A stretch of DNA of 10,420 nucleotides from Coriobacteriales bacterium. Its GTDB lineage: Bacteria; Actinomycetota; Coriobacteriia; Coriobacteriales; QAMH01. Shown piece by piece: positions 1-10,420 of this stretch. Positions within the stretch are counted from its first letter, which is position 1. Each line of letters opens with the position of its first letter. The notes beneath the pieces are model-generated. The model searched no databases. It was not told where the DNA came from and saw only the letters and a program-made list of their open reading frames with translations. The position numbers and the translations under genes were made by a program. The stretch covers positions 1 to 10,420 of the forward strand of contig JAKSUU010000021.1 in the NCBI GenBank assembly GCA_024408695.1. The letters are read 5' to 3'.

Positions 1-137
1 GATTGCGTTTGAGAAAAATACATACTAAAACATGCAAAAAGTAAAGCAAGTGTAAGGATTAAAGCTATTGCGCATGCCAAACTCGTAAAGCCATCTTCAT
101 TTCTAAATTTATTATATATGCATAGTTCATTTTTCAT
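1..137 (-). CDS. TadE/TadG-like pilus-associated protein, N-terminal part only
   Basis: This gene is cut by the left window edge, so only the first 45 codons are seen. It starts at the ATG at 135-137, 7 bases after the stop of the tadE-like gene, with a weak AAGGTA ribosome site. A polar leader ending in NEDG (residues 13-16) is followed by a hydrophobic stretch starting FTSLACAIALILTLALL, then a turn to polar residues (FSQTQ). This is the layout of TadE/TadG-like pseudopilins: a short basic or polar leader, a Gly before the membrane helix, and an extracytoplasmic remainder. Unlike its three neighbours it lacks the Glu at position +5 after the candidate cleavage Gly (Ala instead). Its place as last visible gene of the tad operon supports a minor pilin or pilus-anchoring role. 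The remainder of the protein is unseen, so the family call is tentative. Confidence 0.6.
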   Translation of the reverse strand, partial: MKNELCIYNKFRNEDGFTSLACAIALILTLALLFACFSMYFSQTQ

Positions 138-144
138 TTTTACC

Positions 145-642
145 TTATTTCCATTGGCTAATCCAGTCCTGCGGATTCACGCTTTTACCTTCCAACCACA
201 CAGGATATATATTTGCACTCGCTTTAGTTTCAATCAAAATATTATTAGAATCATCCTTCTTATTTAAAAGGCTTGCACCAATACCTAGAAGAGGTAAGGG
301 CCTTACATGATTCGTTATAGTTACAGTTTCACAAGTTTCTTCATTACAAATTTTTACATCCCAAGAATCCATGCCACCTATATGAAACACATCTACGTTT
401 GGAATTGCTCCTAACCTTCTTTGTGCAAATAAGTGAAGATTTTCATTATCGAACGTAGCTGTTGCAGCTAATCGAGCCGTTTGTACAGCAGCAGATTGCA
501 TTACGCATTTGTCATACAACAAAAAACATGGTTGCAAAAATAACCCAAATATTACAAAAAGCAAAGGTAGCAAAATCGCAGCTTCTACACTTGCCTGTCC
601 TTTTGATTCTTTAAATAAGACGATTTTAATATAAGAACGCAT
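145..642 (-). CDS. TadE-like pseudopilin of the Tad pilus
   Basis: This is a 165-residue protein from the ATG at 640-642. An in-frame TTG lies two codons upstream, but AGAAGGA at 650-656 sits 7 bases from the ATG and decides the start. The leader ends KESKG and is followed by QASVEAAILLPLLFVIFG: a class III prepilin-type site with cleavage expected between Gly15 and Gln16, Glu at +5 of the mature form, then one membrane helix to about residue 40. The following YDKCVMQSAAVQTARLAA is the usual TadE region after the helix. The remainder is extracytoplasmic and has two Cys (KICNEETCETV) that could form a disulfide. TadE-like proteins are processed by the prepilin peptidase TadV and are needed for Flp pilus assembly in family members that have been studied. 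The gene overlaps the preceding one by 17 bases, so translational coupling is likely. Confidence 0.82.
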   Translation of the reverse strand: MRSYIKIVLFKESKGQASVEAAILLPLLFVIFGLFLQPCFLLYDKCVMQSAAVQTARLAATATFDNENLHLFAQRRLGAIPNVDVFHIGGMDSWDVKICNEETCETVTITNHVRPLPLLGIGASLLNKKDDSNNILIETKASANIYPVWLEGKSVNPQDWISQWK

Positions 643-859
643 CAACAAATCCTTCTAAGCTATTTATATCATGAGAGCCAAAAGTTTGTATGAGTTGACC
701 TAATCCGCCATCAGCAATAAAATGCACAAGTGCACCTAGAGCACAAGTTACAAGCATTAATACGATACCAACAAGTAAATACTCTAGACTTGCTTGACCC
801 TTACTTTTAAAGAGTGCTCTTTTAACAAAATTGTGACAAGCACTAATTTTATAACCCAT
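626..859 (-). CDS. Small Flp-like/TadE-like pilin of the Tad locus
   Basis: This is a 77-residue protein starting at the ATG at 857-859, which overlaps the end of flp by 11 bases. GGAAGG lies about 5 bases upstream of the ATG. The first 21 residues are a basic leader ending FKSKG, followed by QASLEYLLVGIVLMLVTCALG. This matches the Flp cleavage motif exactly: Gly, then Glu at +5 and Tyr at +6, then a single hydrophobic helix (about 27-48). The mature product would be about 56 residues, with a polar tail (GSHDINSLEGF). I recall comparable short proteins between flp and tadE in Coriobacteriia tad loci but cannot give a family name. It could be a minor pilin, a second Flp subunit or a truncated TadE/TadF-type pseudopilin. 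The sequence does not decide among these. Confidence 0.78.
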   Translation of the reverse strand: MGYKISACHNFVKRALFKSKGQASLEYLLVGIVLMLVTCALGALVHFIADGGLGQLIQTFGSHDINSLEGFVDAFLY

Positions 860-1058
860 TAATACCTTCCTGTATAGAATTCCAGAGTTCTGCTAGTTTG
901 TCTTTAAATAAAGTGATTGCAATAATCGCAATTACTGCAAGAACACCCACTAAAATGGCATATTCTGTGGTGCCTTGCCCTTTTTGCGATTTTAATTTAC
1001 CTAAAAATGTGCTCCACTTAGCTAAAAGATAAAAATAAAAATTGTTAATCCTTTTCAT
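849..1058 (-). CDS. flp: Flp/Fap type IVb major pilin subunit
   Basis: This is a 69-residue prepilin, normal size for Flp. It starts at the ATG at 1056-1058 behind a GAAAGGAAGA ribosome site. A 27-residue basic leader ends KSQKG. Cleavage after Gly27 would release a mature pilin of 42 residues starting QGTTEYAILVGVLAVIAII, with the diagnostic Glu5-Tyr6 pair and one hydrophobic assembly helix, followed by a short amphipathic tail (FKDKLAELWNSIQEGINGL). Flp polymerises into the bundle-forming Tad pilus used for surface attachment. It lies 30 bases after tadC and before two pseudopilin genes. No terminator or promoter is evident between tadC and flp, so it appears to be transcribed with the operon, although pilin genes are often more strongly expressed than their neighbours. 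The leader is longer than in many Flp proteins. Confidence 0.9.
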   Translation of the reverse strand: MKRINNFYFYLLAKWSTFLGKLKSQKGQGTTEYAILVGVLAVIAIIAITLFKDKLAELWNSIQEGINGL

Positions 1059-1088
1059 ATTCTTCCTTTCTACCTAAACCAAAATAAA

Positions 1089-1841
1089 TTAAACTCCAGA
1101 GTAAACAAATTGAATTACTACTGGTCCAACTACAAAAATAAGCATTGCTGGCAAAATGCAACAACACATCGGAATCAACATTTTTACAGGTGCTTTTTCT
1201 ATTTTCTTTTCTATGCTTGCAGTTTTTTTACTTCGAATGTCGTCCGCAAAATTTTTAAGCATATCCGCAATAGGTGCACCATGTTTAATTGCATGAATGA
1301 CTGTGTTACAAAAACGCTCTATCTCTGATGACTTTATATTTTGTGTAAGATCTTCTAAGGCCTTTTGTCTAGAACAAATTCCATTGTTCCATTTAAATTG
1401 GGCATTGCTTAAAGCTAAAGATAATGCTCCATCAAATTTTGAACAATACATAGCTAAAGCACTGTCAAAAGATAATCCAGAACTTATTCCCATGGCAATA
1501 ATATCAGAGCAACTGTCCAGAGAATTTTCACATTCCAACATCAATTTTTTTTGTTTTTGTTTGATTAATAAATTAGGAATTTTTTTAGACATAATAAAAC
1601 TAATTGCAAGTAAAAATGGTAATACATATGGTGAAAAGCTAAACGATAAAATAAGGCTTGCAGCCAACAAAAGAATTAATAGTAGTTTTTTGTCTTGCAA
1701 TACATCATTTAAACAAAGTTTATTTGAACTTAAACTAATACGACTTTTCACTCTAACAAAAACGGCAACAAAATAATTAGCCAAAATGTACAGAGTAATT
1801 GCAAGAAAAATTATGGATAAAATTTTTAACAACAAAGACAT
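1089..1841 (-). CDS. tadC: Tad pilus inner-membrane platform protein TadC (T2SF domain)
   Basis: This is a 250-residue membrane protein. Hydrophobic spans lie at about residues 2-26, 53-83 (probably two) and 220-246. Between them is a cytoplasmic type II secretion system F (GspF-like) domain, about 105-215, containing the GISSGLSFDSAL and HGAPIADML stretches typical of this fold. The C-terminal KMLIPMCCCILPAMLIFVVGP matches the usual TadC ending (K-x-L-x-P, then ILPA, then GP). With TadB it forms the platform through which the TadA ATPase drives pilin assembly. It starts one base after the tadB stop, with AGGATAA contained in the end of tadB, so the two are almost certainly translationally coupled. 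Three consecutive Cys in the last membrane segment are unusual. Confidence 0.88.
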   Translation of the reverse strand: MSLLLKILSIIFLAITLYILANYFVAVFVRVKSRISLSSNKLCLNDVLQDKKLLLILLLAASLILSFSFSPYVLPFLLAISFIMSKKIPNLLIKQKQKKLMLECENSLDSCSDIIAMGISSGLSFDSALAMYCSKFDGALSLALSNAQFKWNNGICSRQKALEDLTQNIKSSEIERFCNTVIHAIKHGAPIADMLKNFADDIRSKKTASIEKKIEKAPVKMLIPMCCCILPAMLIFVVGPVVIQFVYSGV

Positions 1842-1842
1842 A

Positions 1843-2643
1843 TTATCCTATCTTTAAATCAATGTTTAAGTTAAGTGTTTTTCGCACCAATAAAATACCA
1901 AGAAGTTCTAAAACAATTGCAAGAATAAATAAAAATATTCCAAGTATATTAGTAAAAAAATAAGCAAGGTAACCTGGTTGCAAAAAACTTAAAACTGCAA
2001 GCAGAATAAAGGGCATTATGGCAATGATTTTGCTTGATAATTTTGCCTGAGCAGTTTTCGTTTCTAATAAATTTTGCATAGTCATATATTGTTTTAATAG
2101 TTGTGATGTACTTTTTAAAATTTCACTTAAAGACCCGCCGCATTCATGTTGAATTTCCATTGCAATTGATAGAAATGAAAATTCAGTAATGGTATATTTT
2201 TGACGCAATCTTTCCATAGCAGCATCGAAAGTATAGCCTGCTTGCATATCCCAAACTGCCCCGCTTAATTCTTTAGCAAGTGGTTGCTTTACATTTACAG
2301 AAGCATAATTTAAAGACTTAACAAGGGATGAACCACTATCCAAAGCAATACAAATAAGACGTATGGCATCAGGCATTTCTTTTCTTATTAATGCACCTTG
2401 TTTTGAATGCTTGAAACGCAATAAATATTTATTTATTTTATTGTGATGACCAAGCTTTTTAGAAAAAGTTTCTATTATTTTTGCTCTATTAGAATACGAA
2501 TCTAATTCTATATTTAAGTGTTTTCTTTTAATTTTAGTTTTAATATCTAAAATAACTGCAATTAATATCTTCACTAAATTAAAAGTCGCAAACGCAACGA
2601 ATACTAAGGCAAGCACTAGCAAAATTGCAGAGAGGATTTCCAT
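1843..2643 (-). CDS. tadB: Tad pilus inner-membrane platform protein TadB (T2SF domain)
   Basis: This is a 266-residue protein with N-terminal membrane spans (about 3-34), a type II secretion system F domain (about 90-205, with LDSGSSLVKSL and ECGGSLSEIL motifs) and two C-terminal spans (about 206-222 and 232-254). This is the typical TadB layout. TadB pairs with TadC in the inner membrane and contacts the TadA ATPase. The ATG at 2641-2643 lies inside the end of tadA (28-base overlap) and is preceded by a near-perfect GGAGGT, 6 bases away, so the start is secure and coupling to tadA is expected. The LxSG pattern of the first T2SF repeat is shared with the TadC product downstream, reflecting the known common origin of the two. 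Confidence 0.88.
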   Translation of the reverse strand: MEILSAILLVLALVFVAFATFNLVKILIAVILDIKTKIKRKHLNIELDSYSNRAKIIETFSKKLGHHNKINKYLLRFKHSKQGALIRKEMPDAIRLICIALDSGSSLVKSLNYASVNVKQPLAKELSGAVWDMQAGYTFDAAMERLRQKYTITEFSFLSIAMEIQHECGGSLSEILKSTSQLLKQYMTMQNLLETKTAQAKLSSKIIAIMPFILLAVLSFLQPGYLAYFFTNILGIFLFILAIVLELLGILLVRKTLNLNIDLKIG

Positions 2644-3923
2644 AAGGCCACCTCCTTTTCAGTTGCAATCTTACTATACGGCAAAAAATCAACCCAATCA
2701 GGGCAAACTTCCCATATGTATTCATTAGTCTTTTTATCTAGTTCGCAAACGCACTCATAATCTTTAGAATCTAAATTTTTAGCTACTATCTTTGTTATAG
2801 CGCGTTTTCCGCTACCTAAACGGTCTTGTTGCACAATTAAGTCAAGTGCAGAAAATATTTGAGCTTCTATAACGTTTATAGGCAAATCCATACCATAACG
2901 TACCATCATAACAAGTCTGGTTATTACTTCGCTTGGTGAATTAGCATGAAGAGTTGTAAGAGAACCATCGTGACCTGTGTTCATAGCTTGAAGCATATCC
3001 GCAGCTTCGGCACCACGACATTCTCCTACAACAATTCTATCAGGGCGCATACGCAAAGAATTCACAACTAGATCTCTAATAGATATTTGCCCATTGCCCT
3101 CGCTATTAGCCTCGCGCGCTTCCATACGAACAACATGAGGATGTCTGTCAAACTTAAGTTCAGCAGAATCTTCAATGGTAATGATTCTTTCGTTAAAGGG
3201 TATTTGTTGAGATAAGGCATTTAGAAGAGTGGTTTTGCCTCCGCCGGTACCACCACTAACGGCAATATTTTTACGAGCTCGTACGGCCCATGATAACAAT
3301 AAAGCAATTTGACTTGTCATTGACTTCATGTCAACCATATCCTGCAAAGAAAATGCATTTTGTCTAAATTTTCTAATTGTTAAAGATGTTCCATCAATTG
3401 AAACTGGTGCAATCACCGCATTAACTCTATGACCTTCAGACAAACGAGCATTAACTATTGGACTTTGCTCATCTATTCTGCGTCCTAAAGGTGCAACAAT
3501 CCTATCTACCACTAACCGCAATTGCTCATCTGATTCGTAATGTTGTTTTGATGAATATATAACACCATTTTTTTCATAAAATACATGTTTGTATCCATTT
3601 ACCATGATTTCTGTGACACTATCATCATTTAATAAATTCTCAATGGGGCCAAGTCCTAAAATTAGATCTAAAATTTCGGTGCTAATTTCTTTTCTATCTT
3701 CATCGCTTACTTTTGAAAATTCTTTATCCATAAATATTTGTTCAATCAATACAGACAATTCTACACGCGCAATATTTCGACCCTTAGACACAAGTTTAGC
3801 AATATGCTCGCTTGGAATCTTTTCGTACAAGATATCTCTAACTCTAGATTTAACTAAGTTAACTTTGTAACTACTAGAGGGGCTTACAGAGATTTTTTTA
3901 TTTGAATAGTCGCTTAAATTCAT
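2616..3923 (-). CDS. tadA: Tad secretion ATPase TadA/CpaF (type II/IV secretion GspE superfamily)
   Basis: This is a 435-residue hexameric ATPase powering Flp pilus assembly at the cytoplasmic membrane face. The N-terminal domain (about 1-200) includes the LGLGPIENLLNDDSVTEIM stretch (89-107) typical of CpaF. The ATPase core has Walker A GGTGGGKTT (224-232), the Asp box ITIEDSAEL (248-256), Walker B-like RIVVGECRGAEA (296-307) and the His box TGHDGSLTTLHANS (316-329). All motifs are intact, so it should be active. It starts 8 bases after the cpaE stop with no convincing Shine-Dalgarno before the ATG (AAGTAG at best), so expression may depend on reinitiation after cpaE. The C-terminus after about residue 385 is less conserved. 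It is the best recognised gene of the locus. Confidence 0.95.
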   Translation of the reverse strand: MNLSDYSNKKISVSPSSSYKVNLVKSRVRDILYEKIPSEHIAKLVSKGRNIARVELSVLIEQIFMDKEFSKVSDEDRKEISTEILDLILGLGPIENLLNDDSVTEIMVNGYKHVFYEKNGVIYSSKQHYESDEQLRLVVDRIVAPLGRRIDEQSPIVNARLSEGHRVNAVIAPVSIDGTSLTIRKFRQNAFSLQDMVDMKSMTSQIALLLSWAVRARKNIAVSGGTGGGKTTLLNALSQQIPFNERIITIEDSAELKFDRHPHVVRMEAREANSEGNGQISIRDLVVNSLRMRPDRIVVGECRGAEAADMLQAMNTGHDGSLTTLHANSPSEVITRLVMMVRYGMDLPINVIEAQIFSALDLIVQQDRLGSGKRAITKIVAKNLDSKDYECVCELDKKTNEYIWEVCPDWVDFLPYSKIATEKEVALWKSSLQFC

Positions 3924-3931
3924 AGAATAAT

Positions 3932-4813
3932 CTACTTGAATATACTTGTTGTATTGATAGGCTCGTCTGTATAAATCAAGCCTAAATGAGGTAAAATTTC
4001 ATGGAGCAAAGACCTTATATCTCTAACCGTAGAATTGTCTATTGAAATTAATTCTTCTAAGTTAGAACTTGAAATATATTCCTCTATAATGGATTTTCCA
4101 TCGCTTACAGTAAAAATGTCTTTACTGCCTATAGTCTTTTTTAAATCGTCTTGCGAAATTTTTACCCTAGAATTAAATTTATTATATATAATCACCATAC
4201 GGCTTAGAGCCACACCAATTCTAGTACACAACTCACTAGCTTTTATTGCACCAAGAATTGATGAAACTCTACTGTCACAAACCATATAAAACAAACTTGA
4301 CTCTAAAAGTAAGTTAGCTGTAAATCCATTCCAAAAAGCACCCGTATCTGCAAAAACCAAACTATGTTTTTTTCTTATTAAACTTATTTTGTCGCTAACA
4401 TTATCGCTAGTTTTTTCTGCAAGCTCCGGGAATAAAGGAGCCTTATACAAATGCAAGTTAGGCGCTATTTGTATGGGGTCTTCTAAAGTAGTGTCACCTA
4501 GAGTTGGAAGATCTTCATCTAAACCCAACCAATATCCATAATCACCAAATTGTAAATCTCCCTCAACTAGTACGGTATCAATTCCACTTGCTGCACACAG
4601 ACGCGCACTAATTAAGGCAAGACTTGATTTCCCTACCCCACCACTAGCAGAAACACAAGAAATTAATGGTGCTAGATTTCCGTTTTTTGTCTCGTGCAAT
4701 CTTAGCTCATTAAAATACGCATCGTCTGAATAAAAATCATCATAGTACTGAGGCGCATCGAGCTCTAACAGCTCCTGCTGTGTAGGTAGTAAACTATTTG
4801 CATACACATCCAT
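3932..4813 (-). CDS. cpaE: MinD/ParA-like Tad pilus localisation protein CpaE/TadZ
   Basis: This is a 293-residue protein from the ATG at 4811-4813. The frame is open upstream to 4891, but that would overlap cpaB by 65 bases, whereas AAAGGA at 4819-4824 lies 5 bases from the chosen ATG. Residues 1-48 are acidic and variable. The P-loop ATPase domain starts at about residue 48 with a deviant Walker A, SASGGVGKSS (55-64), as in MinD/ParA proteins. GDLQFGDYGYWLGL (86-98) and SLVFADTGAF are further ParA-like elements. CpaE/TadZ places the Tad machinery at a defined cell site. Many CpaE proteins carry an N-terminal receiver-like domain; the roughly 50 residues here leave no room for one. It lies 13 bases after cpaB and 8 bases before tadA. 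Confidence 0.87.
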   Translation of the reverse strand: MDVYANSLLPTQQELLELDAPQYYDDFYSDDAYFNELRLHETKNGNLAPLISCVSASGGVGKSSLALISARLCAASGIDTVLVEGDLQFGDYGYWLGLDEDLPTLGDTTLEDPIQIAPNLHLYKAPLFPELAEKTSDNVSDKISLIRKKHSLVFADTGAFWNGFTANLLLESSLFYMVCDSRVSSILGAIKASELCTRIGVALSRMVIIYNKFNSRVKISQDDLKKTIGSKDIFTVSDGKSIIEEYISSSNLEELISIDNSTVRDIRSLLHEILPHLGLIYTDEPINTTSIFK

Positions 4814-4818
4814 CTTAG

Positions 4819-4824
4819 TCCTTT
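4819..4824 (-). promoter_or_regulatory. Ribosome binding site deciding the cpaE start
   Basis: AAAGGA lies 5 bases upstream of the ATG at 4811-4813, in the short gap after the cpaB stop. It favours this ATG over the upstream in-frame ATG at 4889-4891, which lies inside cpaB. Confidence 0.7.
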
Positions 4825-4826
4825 CT

Positions 4827-5501
4827 CTATTGATTATTATTTTTAGATTTATCACTTTGTACTGCAGGTAGTGCCAAATGTATTGTTCCATTAGAAGATG
4901 CTTTCATTAATGCCGAAACGCTATCGCTTTCTACAGCTAAAGTTACCCATGTGATTTCTTCTGTATCTTTTGAATTTTTAGTAGATTTATTTGTTTCTAA
5001 AACCAAAATATTTTTGCCTAACAAAACAATATTATTTTTGTCTGTTTCAACATAGACATCAACGAAAGAACCTGCGCGAATAGCTCCACCTACAGCTAAA
5101 ACATCATCGGACGAAATGCTTACTGCCTCTAAGCCAGAAGGCACATTAATTCGCGAACTTCCGTCTCCTATTCTTTCGAATAAAAGTACTTCATTATTTT
5201 GAATATCTACTGCAGCGACTTGATCATCTATGTCATCTAAACTAGATATAGTCGTTCCTTTTGGTAGTAAATCTACAAGCCAGGTTTTAAGTTCGCAATT
5301 AGAAGAATTTAATACTTCTCCTGCACCTATATCTTTTGTAGCAACTACAACTTCCGTACGTTCTCCACCATATTTATTTATAGCTAAATCTCTTGCGACT
5401 TTAGCTTCTGAACTTACAGTTGCTGTATACCCAAAAACACACAAACTCGCTAATGCTGCACAAGCTATTGCCAAAATTAAATTTTTTTTGCTCGCTTTCA
5501 C
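4827..5501 (-). CDS. cpaB: Tad pilus assembly protein CpaB/RcpC (SAF domain)
   Basis: This is a 224-residue protein. The longer frame begins with a TTG at 5511-5513, but TGGAG at 5508-5512 lies 6 bases before a GTG at 5499-5501, which gives the conventional start MKASKKNLILAIAC. A single N-terminal membrane anchor (about 7-27) is followed by a SAF domain (about 48-114, with VVVATKDIGAGEVLNSSNC) and the RcpC/CpaB region (about 115-210, with GLEAVSISSDDVLAVGGAIRAGSFVDVYV). CpaB/RcpC acts outside the membrane in Flp pilus assembly. In diderms it works with a secretin, but no secretin gene is present here, consistent with a monoderm. It is the first gene of the visible operon, 13 bases before cpaE, behind an AT-rich leader. 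Confidence 0.87.
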   Translation of the reverse strand: MKASKKNLILAIACAALASLCVFGYTATVSSEAKVARDLAINKYGGERTEVVVATKDIGAGEVLNSSNCELKTWLVDLLPKGTTISSLDDIDDQVAAVDIQNNEVLLFERIGDGSSRINVPSGLEAVSISSDDVLAVGGAIRAGSFVDVYVETDKNNIVLLGKNILVLETNKSTKNSKDTEEITWVTLAVESDSVSALMKASSNGTIHLALPAVQSDKSKNNNQ

Positions 5502-5773
5502 ACGCCACTCCAAAACACAGACATTGGCATACTAGCATGTCAAGCTATAAAAATTCAATGAATTGCAAAGAAATTTTTAGTGAAAATTTAAAGGATAATG
5601 CCAAAAATAATCAAAGTCTTATCAAAAAAAATTGGATTTAAACTGAATTATAGATGAATAATAAGGAAATAATTCTAAAATTTTACTGAATTTATACTAA
5701 AAAAAGCAAATATCCACACGTATAATACATGTAAACATGCAAAAAAAATTAAAATAAGGATTTTATGGTTTCT
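5502..5773. other. AT-rich intergenic leader upstream of the tad operon
   Basis: These 272 bases are very A+T rich and contain no gene I can support. On the minus strand there is a perfect TATAAT (5647-5652) with only a poor -35 match (GAATTA at 17 bases), so it is a weak candidate tad promoter with a leader of about 140 bases. An interrupted palindrome CATGT-AA-ACATG lies at 5728-5739. A minus-strand TTGACA at 5538-5543 has no matching -10. An imperfect AT-only hairpin (about 5548-5581) falls in the putative leader. No rho-independent terminator for the upstream 54-codon gene is clear. Confidence 0.4.
5508..5512 (-). promoter_or_regulatory. Ribosome binding site deciding the cpaB start
   Basis: TGGAG lies 6 bases upstream of the GTG at 5499-5501. 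It overlaps the TTG that opens the longest frame, so that TTG cannot use it. A 10-codon frame (5498-5530, MPMSVFWSGV) ends TGA overlapping this GTG by three bases (GTGA), but it has no Shine-Dalgarno of its own, so I do not call it a gene. Confidence 0.6.
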
Positions 5774-5938
5774 TTAATTTAATAGAAGAGCAAAAGAAGG
5801 AATACAAAAGCCAATGATTAATAGGCCACAAACCACAATAATTAAAACTCTTTTGATAAGTTGTTTTCTATCTTTAGCTTTTCTTTCTAAAAAAGCTTGC
5901 ATTTGAGCTTCTTCTTGTTTTTCTTTGTTTTTTGACAT
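5774..5938 (-). CDS. Small single-span membrane protein, function unknown
   Basis: This is a 54-codon gene starting at the ATG at 5936-5938, preceded by AGGA 7 bases upstream. The first 30 residues are highly charged and rich in Lys, Glu and Gln (starting MSKNKEKQEEAQMQAF), probably a cytoplasmic helix. Residues 31-53 form one hydrophobic segment (VLIIVVCGLLIIGF, then CIPSFALLLN). The basic residues directly before the span (KQLIKR) suggest the N-terminus is inside. It lies 75 bases after the amidohydrolase gene on the same strand and has its own TATAAT upstream. I do not recognise the family. The good ribosome site, clean charge-to-membrane pattern and conservative codon use make it a credible real gene. 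Its charged-then-hydrophobic plan resembles the 205-residue protein nearby, but I see no proof of relatedness. Confidence 0.65.
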   Translation of the reverse strand: MSKNKEKQEEAQMQAFLERKAKDRKQLIKRVLIIVVCGLLIIGFCIPSFALLLN

Positions 5939-5965
5939 TTTATTTCCTAAACCTCGCCCTTAAAT

Positions 5966-5971
5966 ATTATA
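5966..5971 (-). promoter_or_regulatory. Candidate -10 element for the 54-codon membrane protein gene
   Basis: A perfect TATAAT on the minus strand ends 27 bases before the ATG at 5936-5938, in the gap after the amidohydrolase gene. The hexamer 17 bases upstream is a poor -35 (ACAAAT). In such an AT-rich genome a chance match is quite possible. Confidence 0.3.
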
Positions 5972-6013
5972 CCTAAACTACAAAACTAATTTGTGTAATT
6001 ATAAATGGCAAAT

Positions 6014-7456
6014 TTACCTTTTAACACGTTCAACTAACTCATTTTGAAAATTATCTAACAATTCTTCTCTATAATCAATATCGTCCCTAAACATAATAAT
6101 ATTTTCACGCAAACACGAAATATCCTTAACAATTTGTTTGCGTTTTAGTTTTCCTTTGTGGTTAAAAGAATCATACAAAATTTTGCCATTTACCATAGTC
6201 ATCATAACATTATCCTGATTACAAGTATAAACGACTGCATTAGCAGGATTAGTTGTTGGAATTTGATGGCTCTTGCTAAGATCCACAGCAATAATATCCG
6301 CTTGCTTTCCAATATCAATACTGCCTACCTTGTCATCTAAATTTAAAGCCTTAGCAGAATACAAAGTTGCAAGTTTCAAAACATAATCTGTAGAAACATT
6401 TAGTTTGGTATCATCTGGATGCAAAGATCTGTTCATCATTAGGGCAAAACGCATTTCATCTAATAAATCGGTAGTATCAACAGAAGCTGGAGAATCTGTG
6501 CCAAGACCAACCGTAAGCCCAGCTTCGATAAATTTATCAACTGGACAATTTCCCATACCAAGTTTTGCATTAATGCGTGGGCAATATGCAATATTTACAT
6601 TATTATCATAAAGAATTTGCAAATCATCGTTATCAATGTGAATGGCATGAACTAACATAACGTTTTTCATGTCTAAGGCATGCCAATTATGTAAATATCT
6701 GATTGGAGTGCAACCAGCAGGCAACCAAGGCGCATCTGTAAAGCCCATAATTTTTCCAATTTCTGATGCATGCACAGAAAAAGGAGAAGATCCATACTTT
6801 ATAAAGTCACTCTCAGCCTTATTACCAGCAGCATGCATGGCAAAGCGTAAATCACTATTACCTATTGTGCTTGAAATTTCTTGATATAAACTAGGATGAC
6901 AAGTATATACATGACCAGCGCTTACACCTAATTCAACTCGTGATGCATCTACATGCGCAGCTATAGATTCAATCTCATTAAAACCATCTTTTACACAAGA
7001 TTTAACTTTGTCAGCATGAGCTGTGAAAATTTCGTGATAAACTATTCCTCTAAGACCAGCCTGATTTATTGCAATTGCCCCTGCCGGAGTGCGGCCAAAG
7101 TCTGCAACTGTAGTAATTCCGCTTGCAATGGCCTCGAGTGCTCCTAGTTTTGCAGAAGATTCCCAATCTTTTTGAGTAAAAAATATTTCTGCACTTAAAA
7201 CGGCTCTTTTCCACTCAACATAAGGCATGCCTTCAAAAAGTCCACGCATTGCACTATAAGCCAAATGACAATGTGCATCAACCAAACCCGGCATAAGGGC
7301 AGCTTGACCATAATCAATGACCTTTTCTTTTTTATATTTTTTTTCGAGTTCGTCTGCTGGACCAAAATCTAAAATTTTATCTTTTTTTACATAAATCGCA
7401 CCATCGGTAATATATGTTGAGGTAATTGGTAATAAATATTTTGCTTTTAAAATCAT
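6014..7456 (-). CDS. Amidohydrolase of the SAH/MTA deaminase-chlorohydrolase (AtzA/TrzA/SsnA) family
   Basis: This 480-residue cytoplasmic metal-dependent hydrolase has the usual length of the family. The start ATG at 7454-7456 follows AAGGCGAG. Small beta-sandwich parts (1-55 and after about 375, with GSIDIGKQADIIAVD) flank a TIM barrel. The metal ligands are visible: DAHCH (His62, His64), MHAAG (His208), LVHAIH (His270, with His273 nearby) and GTDSPAS (Asp321). Relatives deaminate S-adenosylhomocysteine, methylthioadenosine, guanine or aminofutalosine, or dechlorinate triazines; substrate cannot be assigned. In most of this family the second ligand region reads HxxE, where Glu is the proton shuttle. 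Here it reads HAAG, with the nearest Glu at 215, so activity may be altered or use another residue. A charged tail of about 45 residues follows the sandwich. It lies 30 bases after the lysine-rich membrane protein gene, probably in one transcript. Confidence 0.8.
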   Translation of the reverse strand: MILKAKYLLPITSTYITDGAIYVKKDKILDFGPADELEKKYKKEKVIDYGQAALMPGLVDAHCHLAYSAMRGLFEGMPYVEWKRAVLSAEIFFTQKDWESSAKLGALEAIASGITTVADFGRTPAGAIAINQAGLRGIVYHEIFTAHADKVKSCVKDGFNEIESIAAHVDASRVELGVSAGHVYTCHPSLYQEISSTIGNSDLRFAMHAAGNKAESDFIKYGSSPFSVHASEIGKIMGFTDAPWLPAGCTPIRYLHNWHALDMKNVMLVHAIHIDNDDLQILYDNNVNIAYCPRINAKLGMGNCPVDKFIEAGLTVGLGTDSPASVDTTDLLDEMRFALMMNRSLHPDDTKLNVSTDYVLKLATLYSAKALNLDDKVGSIDIGKQADIIAVDLSKSHQIPTTNPANAVVYTCNQDNVMMTMVNGKILYDSFNHKGKLKRKQIVKDISCLRENIIMFRDDIDYREELLDNFQNELVERVKR

Positions 7457-7486
7457 AACAATCTCGCCTTAAATATATGCACCAAA

Positions 7487-8104
7487 TTATGAGTTATTTG
7501 CTTTTGCACTTTCAGCTTTTTTACTAGCGTTAGACTTGCCTTTTGACTTTTTGCCAAAGGACTTTTTTTCTGCTGCTCTATTTTCTAATTCTTTTTTAAT
7601 CTTTTTTTCTTCTTTTTTAGAAATATGAACTTTTTCTTTGTATTCCTTTTTAATCTTTCTAATTGGAATAAGATCAATAACAAGAGCTAGAATTAAACCT
7701 CCGTAACCTAAGCCCAAACTTACAAAGGTAAGAGGACTTCTATATTCGCTTAATGATTCTAAAAATCTTCCTTCATTAATAGCCCATGAAAATAAAAACG
7801 ATGATAAAACTCCAATGACTGCAAGCACAACACAAACAATCCAAATTTTACGCCATCTTTTATAGCGCGAATCGTGCTTAGCCTGTGCATCTACGGCAGC
7901 ACTACGTATACGTTGGGATTGTTTTTCTTCTTTATTTTTTTGTTTAATGGCTTCTTTTTTTTGCTTTTGTTTAGCTGTTACAGTTTTTTGATAAACAGTA
8001 GAGCCTGCCTTAGATTTAATTTTTGCAGAACTTGCACTCTTTTTACCATTACCTTTATATTCTTTGTTAAGGTTTCGTGTGTTATTGTAACTTCTTTGAG
8101 TCAT
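7487..8104 (-). CDS. Lysine-rich two-span membrane protein, function unknown
   Basis: This is a 205-residue protein starting at the ATG at 8102-8104, behind AAAAGGAAGA. Residues 1-85 are very basic and low in complexity (runs such as KQKQKKEAIKQKNKEEKQ). Two hydrophobic spans follow, about 88-109 (WIVCVVLAVIGVLSSFLFSW) and about 125-148 (LTFVSLGLGYGGLILALVID), with a short polar loop between them. A second Lys/Glu-rich tail (149-205) is predicted to be helical, possibly coiled coil, ending in Lys/Ser/Ala repeats. Both tails would lie in the cytoplasm, where their charge could contact nucleic acid, ribosomes or acidic lipids; that is inference. I do not recognise a family. It is followed after 30 bases by the amidohydrolase gene and preceded by the glf-like frame at 42 bases. 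Confidence 0.7.
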   Translation of the reverse strand: MTQRSYNNTRNLNKEYKGNGKKSASSAKIKSKAGSTVYQKTVTAKQKQKKEAIKQKNKEEKQSQRIRSAAVDAQAKHDSRYKRWRKIWIVCVVLAVIGVLSSFLFSWAINEGRFLESLSEYRSPLTFVSLGLGYGGLILALVIDLIPIRKIKKEYKEKVHISKKEEKKIKKELENRAAEKKSFGKKSKGKSNASKKAESAKANNS

Positions 8105-8146
8105 TTTCTTCCTTTTCTTATTTAAGGTCTAAGCCATTATTATCAT

Positions 8147-9145
8147 TTAAATACATTCAACGCCAATTTCTTGTTTAACAAGTTCAAACGCTGCTTCGAT
8201 GCAAGGGGCCATATCGTAATATTTGTAGGCACCTAATCGACCTGCAAAAATAACATCATTTTCTTGTTTTGCTAAATCTTCATAAGATTTGAAAAGCTGC
8301 GAATTTCTATCATCATTTACAGGATAATAAGGCTCGTCGCCTTCTTCAAACTCTTTTGAATACTCTTTAGAAATTATCGTATCTTTAATAGAATTGCCAT
8401 GAACATCTTTTGCAAACTCAAAATGTTTATGTTCAATAATGCGTGTATAAGGTACATCTGCACTTGTAAAGTTTACTACTGCATTACCTTGATAATTTTC
8501 AACACCTTCTAAAACTTCTGTTTCAAACTTAACAGTTCTATAGTCAAGTTTGCCAAGCTTAAAGTTAAAATATTCATCAATTGCACCTGTATATATAAGT
8601 TTATCTGCAATATCTTTAAAGCTTGCACCAGCAACAATTTCATCAAAGCTTGTGCCTAGCTTTACATCAATTCCATCAACATCAAGCAATTTTTCAAATA
8701 TTTGAGTGTAGCCACCAATAGGTATTCCCTGGTAAATATCATTAAAATAGTTATTGTCGTAAATAAAACGAACTGGTAATCGTTTTATGATAAAAGAAGG
8801 CAAATCTTTGCATTCACGACCCCATTGTTTTTGTGTATATTCTTTAATAAGCTTTTCATAAATATCGCGACCCACAAGAGAAAGCGCTTGTTCTTCTAAA
8901 TTTTTTGGTTCTGAAATGCCTTCTGCTTGACGTTGTTTTTCGATAATCGCCTTTGCTTCTTCAGGAGTTTTAATTACCGGATGGTAAGTCTTTTCATTGA
9001 TGATGACACCATCTGTCTTTATCTTTTCAGCACTTTCTCCCTCTGCAACAACACAGAATGACAGATTCTCTAATCCTGAAAATCCATAGATAAAGTAAGC
9101 ACCAACGGCGCCTGCACCGATCAGTGCAACATTTTTAATCTGCAT
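8147..9145 (-). CDS. glf: Chimeric frame: PanE-like N-terminus joined to UDP-galactopyranose mutase C-terminus
   Basis: This is one open frame of 332 codons from the ATG at 9143-9145 (AGGA 7 bases upstream; an in-frame TTG two codons earlier is a poorer start). Residues 1 to about 63 match the N-terminus of ketopantoate reductase-like proteins: MQIKNVALIGAGAVGAYF with the GxGAxG dinucleotide-binding loop (10-15). From about residue 65 on it is UDP-galactopyranose mutase: EPKNLEEQALSLVG, QWGR (107-110), KRLPVRF with Arg126, YQGIP, VPYTR with Arg235, EPYYPVND, and YKYYDM (308-313). The Glf active-site residues of this part are intact. However, the first roughly 100 Glf residues, holding its own FAD-binding Rossmann start, are missing. 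Glf makes UDP-galactofuranose for cell-surface glycans; this chimera would not be expected to work as either enzyme. It most likely results from a misjoined assembly. Confidence 0.8.
   Translation of the reverse strand: MQIKNVALIGAGAVGAYFIYGFSGLENLSFCVVAEGESAEKIKTDGVIINEKTYHPVIKTPEEAKAIIEKQRQAEGISEPKNLEEQALSLVGRDIYEKLIKEYTQKQWGRECKDLPSFIIKRLPVRFIYDNNYFNDIYQGIPIGGYTQIFEKLLDVDGIDVKLGTSFDEIVAGASFKDIADKLIYTGAIDEYFNFKLGKLDYRTVKFETEVLEGVENYQGNAVVNFTSADVPYTRIIEHKHFEFAKDVHGNSIKDTIISKEYSKEFEEGDEPYYPVNDDRNSQLFKSYEDLAKQENDVIFAGRLGAYKYYDMAPCIEAAFELVKQEIGVECI
8945..8971 (-). other. Junction between PanE-like and Glf-like coding sequence
   Basis: The codons here read KTPEEAKAI. TPEEA is plausible at this point both in PanE-like proteins (following the central strands of the N-terminal domain) and in Glf just before its AxAIIxxQ helix, so the exact breakpoint cannot be placed within this stretch. 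To the left, genes are AT-rich and Coriobacteriia-like; to the right they look clostridial, with an MFS gene near half G+C. No insertion sequence, target duplication or inverted repeat marks the join. Confidence 0.7.
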
Positions 9146-9194
9146 ATCCAAATCCTCATTTCTTTTTGCTTTTTGTAACTAGTCTCTACGTTTC

Positions 9195-9223
9195 ATTGTA
9201 TTTGACCCTCTGTAAAAAAGCAA
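9195..9223 (-). promoter_or_regulatory. Promoter of the panE-like gene
   Basis: On the minus strand TTGCTT (9218-9223) and TACAAT (9195-9200) are separated by exactly 17 bases. The start of transcription would fall near 9188, giving a leader of about 43 bases to the ATG at 9143-9145 with its AGGA. The spacing and match suit a housekeeping sigma factor promoter. Confidence 0.5.
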
Positions 9224-9345
9224 GGAAAAGCACCTGCAGAAGTTCCCATTTTCGAAAGATGAAACGGAATTTTACTTTTGCAATTTACACACAGAAGTGA
9301 TAGAACGCGATACCTTATGAGTATAACGACACCACCTATCTTGTA

Positions 9346-9375
9346 TTGGAAGTATGAGAAAACCTGTGTTATAGT
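9346..9375 (+). promoter_or_regulatory. Candidate extended -10 promoter for the 19-codon ORF
   Basis: TTGGAA (9346-9351) and TATAGT (9370-9375) are 18 bases apart, and TG at 9367-9368 lies one base before the -10, forming an extended -10. Transcription would begin near 9382, about 77 bases before the small ORF. Confidence 0.4.
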
Positions 9376-9458
9376 TACATCATCAAAGAAAACAACACAT
9401 CAGAGAGATACAAACAATCAGTACAGAAGATGTGAATATCAAAAAGGAGGACAAAGAT

Positions 9459-9518
9459 ATGTTAAAGAAAATCGATAGCTTTTTAAAGGAATACTACAGA
9501 GAGTGGGGTTATAAATAA
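9459..9518 (+). CDS. Possible 19-residue peptide with strong ribosome binding site
   Basis: The frame encodes MLKKIDSFLKEYYREWGYK and stops at TAA (9516-9518). A near-perfect AAGGAGG (9444-9450) lies 8 bases before the ATG, much better than chance in this region. The peptide has hydrophobic residues (Leu2, Ile5, Phe8, Leu9, Tyr12, Tyr13, Trp16) spaced to make one face of a helix, with charged residues on the other. With the promoter upstream and the hairpin at 9654-9694 downstream it could form a complete transcript of about 310 bases. It might be a small peptide gene, a leader peptide, a dual-function RNA or the intact start of a decayed gene. No family is recognised. Confidence 0.35.
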   Translation: MLKKIDSFLKEYYREWGYK

Positions 9519-9653
9519 AGCAATCATGTTAAGCAGAGAAAAAGAAGTTAGATTCCCGGAAGTACTGGTATTAACAATCTGAAAAAGGGAATTCAAGAGA
9601 AGAGGAAAGATTATAAGTATATATGAAAAAAGTGAATATCAGAGATGTTAATT

Positions 9654-9694
9654 AAACGGGAGTGCCGCACTTGAAATCAGCAGCACTCCCGTTT
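9654..9694. terminator. Bidirectional rho-independent terminator after the MFS gene
   Basis: Arms AAACGGGAGTGC (9654-9665) and GCACTCCCGTTT (9683-9694) pair perfectly over 12 bases with a GC-rich core, and three more pairs can form inside the loop. On the minus strand the tail reads TTTAATTAAC, 17 bases past the MFS stop. On the plus strand it reads TTTTAGTT, so the same hairpin could also end the 19-codon transcript. Confidence 0.8.
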
Positions 9695-9711
9695 TAGTTC
9701 TGTTATTTGTT

Positions 9712-10420
9712 CTATTTTGAGATATTGGCTTTATGGCGGCTCATGATGAATGCGGAGATCACGAGTACGATTGGGAAGATGCTTCCTGCAAGCATACCGG
9801 CCTGGAGGTTATCTCCGGCACTTTGTGTTACGAAGCCTACAGCTGCAGGACCTACAGATCCGCCTAAGTCACCTGCCATTGCAAGAAGAGCGAACATTGC
9901 AGTTCCGCCCATTGGGATCTTGCTGGATGTGATGCTGATGGTTCCAGGCCACATGATTCCGACTGAGAAACCACATACGATACATCCCATAAGGCCGATG
10001 ATCGGCAGAGAAGATAAGGATGCAACCAGATAGCAGAGCAGGCAGAGGATACCGGAACCGATCATGAACTTTGTAAGTTCGATCTTCTCGCCATATTTTC
10101 CGTAGAAGGTACGGCAGATTCCCATTGAGATCGCAAACATACATGGACCTGCGATATCACCTACACTTTTTGTCAGCTGAAGAGCAGACTCGGCATAAGC
10201 GGATGCCCATTGTGCCATGGAAAGTTCGCTGGCACCGGCACAGATCATAAGTACGATAGCTACCCAGAAAAGAGGAAGCTTAAACAGTCCAAGGATTCCA
10301 AGACCTTCTCCTTCCTCTGTCAGATGCTCGATCGGGCAGTTCATGAAGTTAAAGATATTATAGATTGGAATCAAAGCCCAGAGACAGGCCATAACAGGCC
10401 AGAACTTGATGCCGAACACA
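9712..10420 (-). CDS. MFS transporter, C-terminal part
   Basis: The gene enters from the right edge; about 236 codons are visible and the true start lies outside (the GTG at 10417-10419 is only the first possible start codon in view). About seven hydrophobic segments are seen (near residues 7-25, 47-66, 85-105, 116-134, 138-160, 172-196 and 205-228). They follow a polar loop (about 27-43) that probably separates the two halves of a 12-span transporter. ICAGASELSMAQWASAYAE and GFSVGIMWPGTI resemble MFS transporters of the FucP-like sugar group found in Lachnospiraceae; that assignment is from memory and the substrate is unknown. Its base composition (close to half G+C) is clearly above that of the tad side of the window. 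A strong terminator follows the TAG stop. Confidence 0.8.
   Translation of the reverse strand, partial: VFGIKFWPVMACLWALIPIYNIFNFMNCPIEHLTEEGEGLGILGLFKLPLFWVAIVLMICAGASELSMAQWASAYAESALQLTKSVGDIAGPCMFAISMGICRTFYGKYGEKIELTKFMIGSGILCLLCYLVASLSSLPIIGLMGCIVCGFSVGIMWPGTISITSSKIPMGGTAMFALLAMAGDLGGSVGPAAVGFVTQSAGDNLQAGMLAGSIFPIVLVISAFIMSRHKANISK

Follow-up and report, generated by a model that had tools for sequence, protein, structure and literature searches.

An open frame joining PanE to Glf in a Coriobacteriales MAG is very probably an assembly chimera of two organisms

The window analysed here, 10,420 nucleotides long, is one entire contig of a MAG of 226 contigs (1.21 Mb, 74.8% complete, with a contamination estimate of 0.82%), and on its minus strand a single open frame begins as PanE, a ketopantoate reductase, and continues as Glf, a UDP-galactopyranose mutase. 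We hold it very probable that this contig is an inter-organism chimera made during assembly, and that PanE-Glf is not a real gene. The nearest relatives of its two sides belong to different lineages, and the composition shifts at the join (Table 1). Two source organisms are indicated because the relatives of the right arm are of Lachnospiraceae type and missing from the relatives of the MAG, and a left-arm gene is present in all six same-family genomes; because the composition switches; because no second fusion turned up; and because the join lies within a stretch that both families can encode. A preliminary description had proposed that an assembler joined two genomes through a short shared sequence, and the relatives, the composition and the lack of a second fusion now give this proposal strong support.

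Table 1. Coordinates and nature of the features of the window
Feature	Position	Strand	Content or basis
Left arm, probably the MAG's own	1-8945	.	Tad-type pilus genes, amidohydrolase, protein without a Pfam match, Glf body
Glf, C-terminal ~265 residues	8148-8949	-	PF03275; TIGR00031 positions 108-376 of 378; log-odds +0.104, own-like
Junction, IKTPEEAK codons fitting PanE and Glf	8951-8974	-	Position-by-position comparison, 23 PanE and 54 Glf proteins; codon alignment
PanE (2-dehydropantoate 2-reductase), N-terminal segment, Lachnospiraceae type, GAGAVG loop	8975-9145	-	Identity to PanE relatives
Right arm, last 1.45 kb	8975-10420		PanE N-terminal segment, intergenic stretch, MFS gene
Intergenic stretch, probably foreign	9146-9711	.	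Own-versus-Lachnospiraceae log-odds -0.019 per base, origin uncertain by composition
MFS transporter gene, Lachnospiraceae type, truncated at the contig end	9712-10419	-	MFS_1 Pfam match; log-odds -0.108

The minus-strand frame at 8147-9151 is open without stops over 334 codons, its likely start, which is PanE-like, being the ATG at 9143-9145. GLF (PF03275) is its sole Pfam match, covering residues 100-311 and the whole of the model (1-203 of 203; E 5.2e-80, 268.4 bits). In NCBIfam, the match to UDP-GALP_mutase (TIGR00031) is not full-length and, at 255.9 bits, stays below the curated cutoff of 303.75 bits, and that to apbA_panE (TIGR00745) is weak (positions 2-66 of 305, E 4e-4, 19.8 bits for a cutoff of 141.35 bits). 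The preliminary description, which read one open frame starting as a PanE-like protein with a GAGAVG loop and continuing as Glf, is thus confirmed by the PF03275 match and by matches of the first part to intact PanE proteins, for a product of 334 aa. It had also put the loss from Glf at roughly 100 residues, and 107 to 112 are missing.

Compared with Glf proteins (PF03275, TIGR00031), the frame aligns from about residue 60 to its end, at 62 to 66% identity with the Glf of four same-family genomes, but the first 107 to 112 residues are replaced by unrelated PanE sequence. The N-terminal GxGxxG segment of Glf is missing from the frame by the NCBIfam comparison, and was not found elsewhere in the MAG sequence; in a relative (L003), the segment matching the missing residues contains this motif, which we take to bind FAD. 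Compared with PanE/ApbA proteins (TIGR00745, PF02558 and PF08546), the first 65 residues or so, including GAGAVG, are alike, whereas about 240 of 305 residues are missing, and the C-terminal domain PF08546 was not found in the frame with Pfam. With both enzymes broken, the frame is not expected, from its sequence, to work as either.

The switch between the two families was mapped by ungapped comparison, with residues numbered from the ATG at 9145 and GAGAVG and NLEEQ as anchors for PanE and Glf, respectively. The sample consisted of 23 PanE proteins (24 were taken from 99 matches, one of them without the anchor) and of 54 of the 119 listed Glf matches. Residues 46-56 are PanE-like: G46, I49, N50, Y54 and P56 are identical in 23/23 PanE proteins and the others in 11 to 18, whereas agreement with Glf is 0/54 except at N50 (37/54) and P56 (2/54). 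Positions 41, 42 and 44 are variable in PanE, and agree in 0 to 2 of the 23 proteins. Over residues 66-79, no position agrees with any of the 23 PanE proteins, and agreement with Glf reaches 48/54, residue 73 being the only one at 0/54; past residue 79, outside the anchor, P80, A87, S89, L90, G92 and D94 are identical in 54/54 Glf proteins.

Between these regions, residues 58-65 (IKTPEEAK) are compatible with both families, K59 being found in only 5 of the 54 Glf proteins. At the codon level, the shared stretch amounts to about 26 bases at most, approximately 8950-8975. The placing of the switch at 8945..8971 in the preliminary description was therefore right to within a few bases, the shared stretch itself being 8951-8974, and its view that the switch lies inside KTPEEA, a motif possible in both families, holds. 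Anywhere in the protein, KTPEEA is present in 44/99 PanE matches and 5/117 listed Glf matches, IKTPEEAK in 6/99 and 5/117, and TPEEAK in 16/99 and 21/117. The 117 Glf matches in this count are P0004-P0120.

A separate search of the protein database, as had been proposed for each half of the frame, led from the first 64 residues to PanE proteins that are intact, with identities as high as 86%. Ten loci related to the PanE half were found in named genomes: eight in Lachnospiraceae, Blautia or Eubacteriales MAGs at 69 to 80%, one in a further Lachnospiraceae MAG at 57% and one in a Spirochaetes MAG at 34%. A query with L014, an intact PanE of this type, gave no match in the six same-family genomes of the MAG; among 33 relatives that are more distant, 10 matched, at 23 to 34% identity. 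Neither the panE loci nor the genomes searched from the Candidatus Blautia equi family contained the exact parent of the PanE segment, which reached 73 to 75% DNA identity at best, and no other piece of PanE was found in the MAG's own sequence, which is 74.8% complete.

The MFS gene tells of a similar ancestry. Its 235-aa fragment is 83% identical to the best other protein among at least 120 listed, and the two rows carrying an organism name among the 120 listed are both Lachnospiraceae. None of 19 relatives of the MAG has a match to this gene (0/19), and 7 of 9 genomes holding PanE relatives do, with best identities of 70, 67, 66, 59, 52, 47 and 24%. The two genes were not seen side by side: the MFS gene is present in 0/10 panE loci, and in two genomes, G040 and G041 (the latter Candidatus Blautia equi), panE and the MFS gene are on different contigs. 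Since they were not seen adjacent elsewhere, the right arm could hold a further join. No near-identical source of the right arm was found among 397 genomes from the family of Candidatus Blautia equi (two candidates scored per genome among the matches listed); some match is present in 85 of these genomes, and the best one covers 580 bases of the MFS gene at 74% DNA identity.

On the other side of the join, the left arm is probably native to the MAG. Much of it, at 145-5513 (-), is what we take, from the translations alone, to be a tad-type pilus operon, presumably encoding a pilin-like and TadE-like small proteins, two TadB/C-like membrane proteins, a TadA-like ATPase, and TadZ-like and CpaB-like proteins. 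The amidohydrolase is found nearly full length, at 48 to 51% identity, in 6/6 same-family genomes, and matches, including a few weak ones, were obtained in 19/19 of the relatives searched.

For the Glf half, matches are present in four of the six same-family genomes and in none of the other two, and identity does not exceed 57% elsewhere in the order, among the genomes searched. Among the matches listed from the protein database (119 others of 7998 scored), identities go up to 69%, and the sole listed row naming an organism is Thomasclavelia, at 65%. Because database matches reach these values, Glf identity alone does not fix the lineage; most likely, the Glf half is the MAG's own gene, a placement that rests on composition and neighbours. 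A search of the MAG sequence did not find an intact own-species glf, and the failure to find the Glf N-terminus there is weak evidence in a MAG that is 74.8% complete.

Base composition differs across the join, as the preliminary description had stated: GC is 0.333 over 1-8945 versus 0.42 over 8976-10420, the latter being the weaker signal, reached by 5 of 270 background windows. This background was built from 33 unmasked MAG contigs, cut into windows of 1445 bases that overlap by half (of 40 stretches fetched from the 226 contigs, 7 that were wholly masked were dropped). The comparison of tetranucleotide profiles that had been suggested for the two arms gave a clearer contrast, with a distance of 0.462 for the right arm (8976-10420), above the background maximum of 0.409 in the 270 windows, and distances of 0.200 to 0.309 for the left arm (1-8665), where 11/11 windows are inside the background. 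Log-odds were computed with a third-order Markov model of the own MAG versus 15 fetched Lachnospiraceae-type loci, the window being in neither training set; by windows of 500 bases, they are positive in 18/18 over 1-9000 and negative in 3/3 over 9001-10420, for a set of 15 loci that was found with right-arm queries, so that its choice is not independent.

A second fusion of this kind was sought by a search with the whole frame among about 5.8 billion proteins, in which 7998 candidates were scored and the best 120 listed. None of the 119 other listed Glf matches is a PanE-Glf fusion, all having a GLF domain and none a PanE domain. Likewise, the search with residues 1-64 (100 proteins from 153 candidates) gave 99 other PanE matches, all with PF02558 and none with a Glf domain. 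In the open-licence PMC literature, no paper joining UDP-galactopyranose mutase, ketopantoate reductase and fusion was found. The chimeric protein (P0001) is recorded with two contigs, and so is the MFS fragment, cut to exactly 235 aa at the contig end. Because two contigs assembled independently are unlikely to stop at an identical base, these records suggest one contig deposited twice.

The next-ranked Glf matches, P0002 (533 aa, 97% of the query covered) and P0003 (483 aa, 68%), were considered as relatives of the fusion and rejected, being Glf proteins with an internal tandem duplication; what had looked like similarity between P0002 and the PanE part proved, by pairwise comparison, to be an alignment with Glf residues. 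The duplications are long, involve the middle of the protein, and may themselves be assembly artefacts. Two long PanE matches (P0144 and P0153, 507 and 541 aa) were rejected as fusions as well, for they consist of extra N-terminal sequence and PanE domains, with no Glf domain.

How could such a frame be generated? A metagenome assembler, probably of the short-read type, most likely passed from glf of the MAG organism to panE of a Lachnospiraceae-type species in the same sample, crossing via some 20 to 26 identical bases that would encode IKTPEEAK in both genes. As glf and panE enter that stretch on one strand and in one reading frame, the frame remains open. We infer both the exact sequence identity of the two parents over this stretch and the action of an assembler rather than of a cell. 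A shared stretch of at most about 26 bases would fit a join via a k-mer of about 21 to 27 bases, sizes that we assume. The review PMC7299287 describes inter-species chimeric contigs that form when the graphs of different genomes have k-mers in common, for the most part in related species, and also via sequencing errors. The present contig resembles those in that relatives and composition switch at a short shareable stretch; it differs in that the stretch, of about 26 bases at most, lies between unrelated genes, the cases treated there involving mainly closely related species. As the likely mechanism is the assembler's, a biological one is not needed.

A biological origin would nevertheless be conceivable if a Lachnospiraceae-type MFS-panE segment had been transferred horizontally and had joined glf by illegitimate recombination at a microhomology, with a fused frame, probably inactive, as the outcome; a real join of this kind would be a cross-lineage gene fusion formed at microhomology. 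Illegitimate recombination could also yield an in-frame join inside microhomology, and the record of the chimeric protein with two contigs may be read in its favour. However, the four scanned frames of 6014-10419 match no mobile-element family in Pfam or NCBIfam, a scan of the window for tRNA genes and RNA families returned none, and the right arm reaches the contig end with a Lachnospiraceae-like composition throughout. Large parts are lost from both enzymes, and no second example was seen in the searches made; the failure to find the Glf N-terminus elsewhere in a 75%-complete MAG is compatible with either reading. We therefore regard a recombination event in the cell as improbable. The idea that the frame encodes a functional fusion enzyme, in which a PanE-type Rossmann segment takes the place of the nucleotide-binding part of Glf, deserves almost no credence: the frame is open and free of stop codons, but only about 65 PanE residues are present, PF08546 is missing, Glf has lost the N-terminal residues that bear GxGxxG in L003, and such an architecture was not seen among 99 PanE and 119 listed Glf matches.

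Misbinning of the whole contig, with a left arm that is also foreign to the MAG, would still leave a chimera. In its favour, a single gene of the left arm, apart from Glf, was traced in relatives, and the identity of Glf to database proteins exceeds that to same-family genomes (69% versus 62 to 66%). Against this, the composition of the left arm is within the MAG range in 11/11 windows, and both the amidohydrolase and Glf have their closest counterparts, as far as the order was searched, in same-family genomes, which makes misbinning very unlikely. The preferred reading, a contig assembled from the MAG organism and a Lachnospiraceae-type species, has a significance of quality control only. No panE, MFS transporter or fusion enzyme should be assigned to this genome without first excluding the final 1.45 kb of the contig (8975-10420), and protein P0001 calls for a warning flag; the contamination estimate of the MAG is low nonetheless.

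Some minor features were observed in the intergenic stretch of the right arm. A hairpin at 9654-9694 (-23 kcal/mol, z -4.94) is a possible terminator of the MFS gene, which ends at 9712. An open frame of 19 codons at 9459-9518 (+), MLKKIDSFLKEYYREWGYK, is preceded by AAGGAGG and is divergent from panE. Around it, the region 9350-9540 has matches in 45 of 299 genomes from the family of Candidatus Blautia equi, all of them short (19 to 57 bases at 75 to 100% identity), which we take as a putative promoter-like or ribosome-binding-site-like resemblance.
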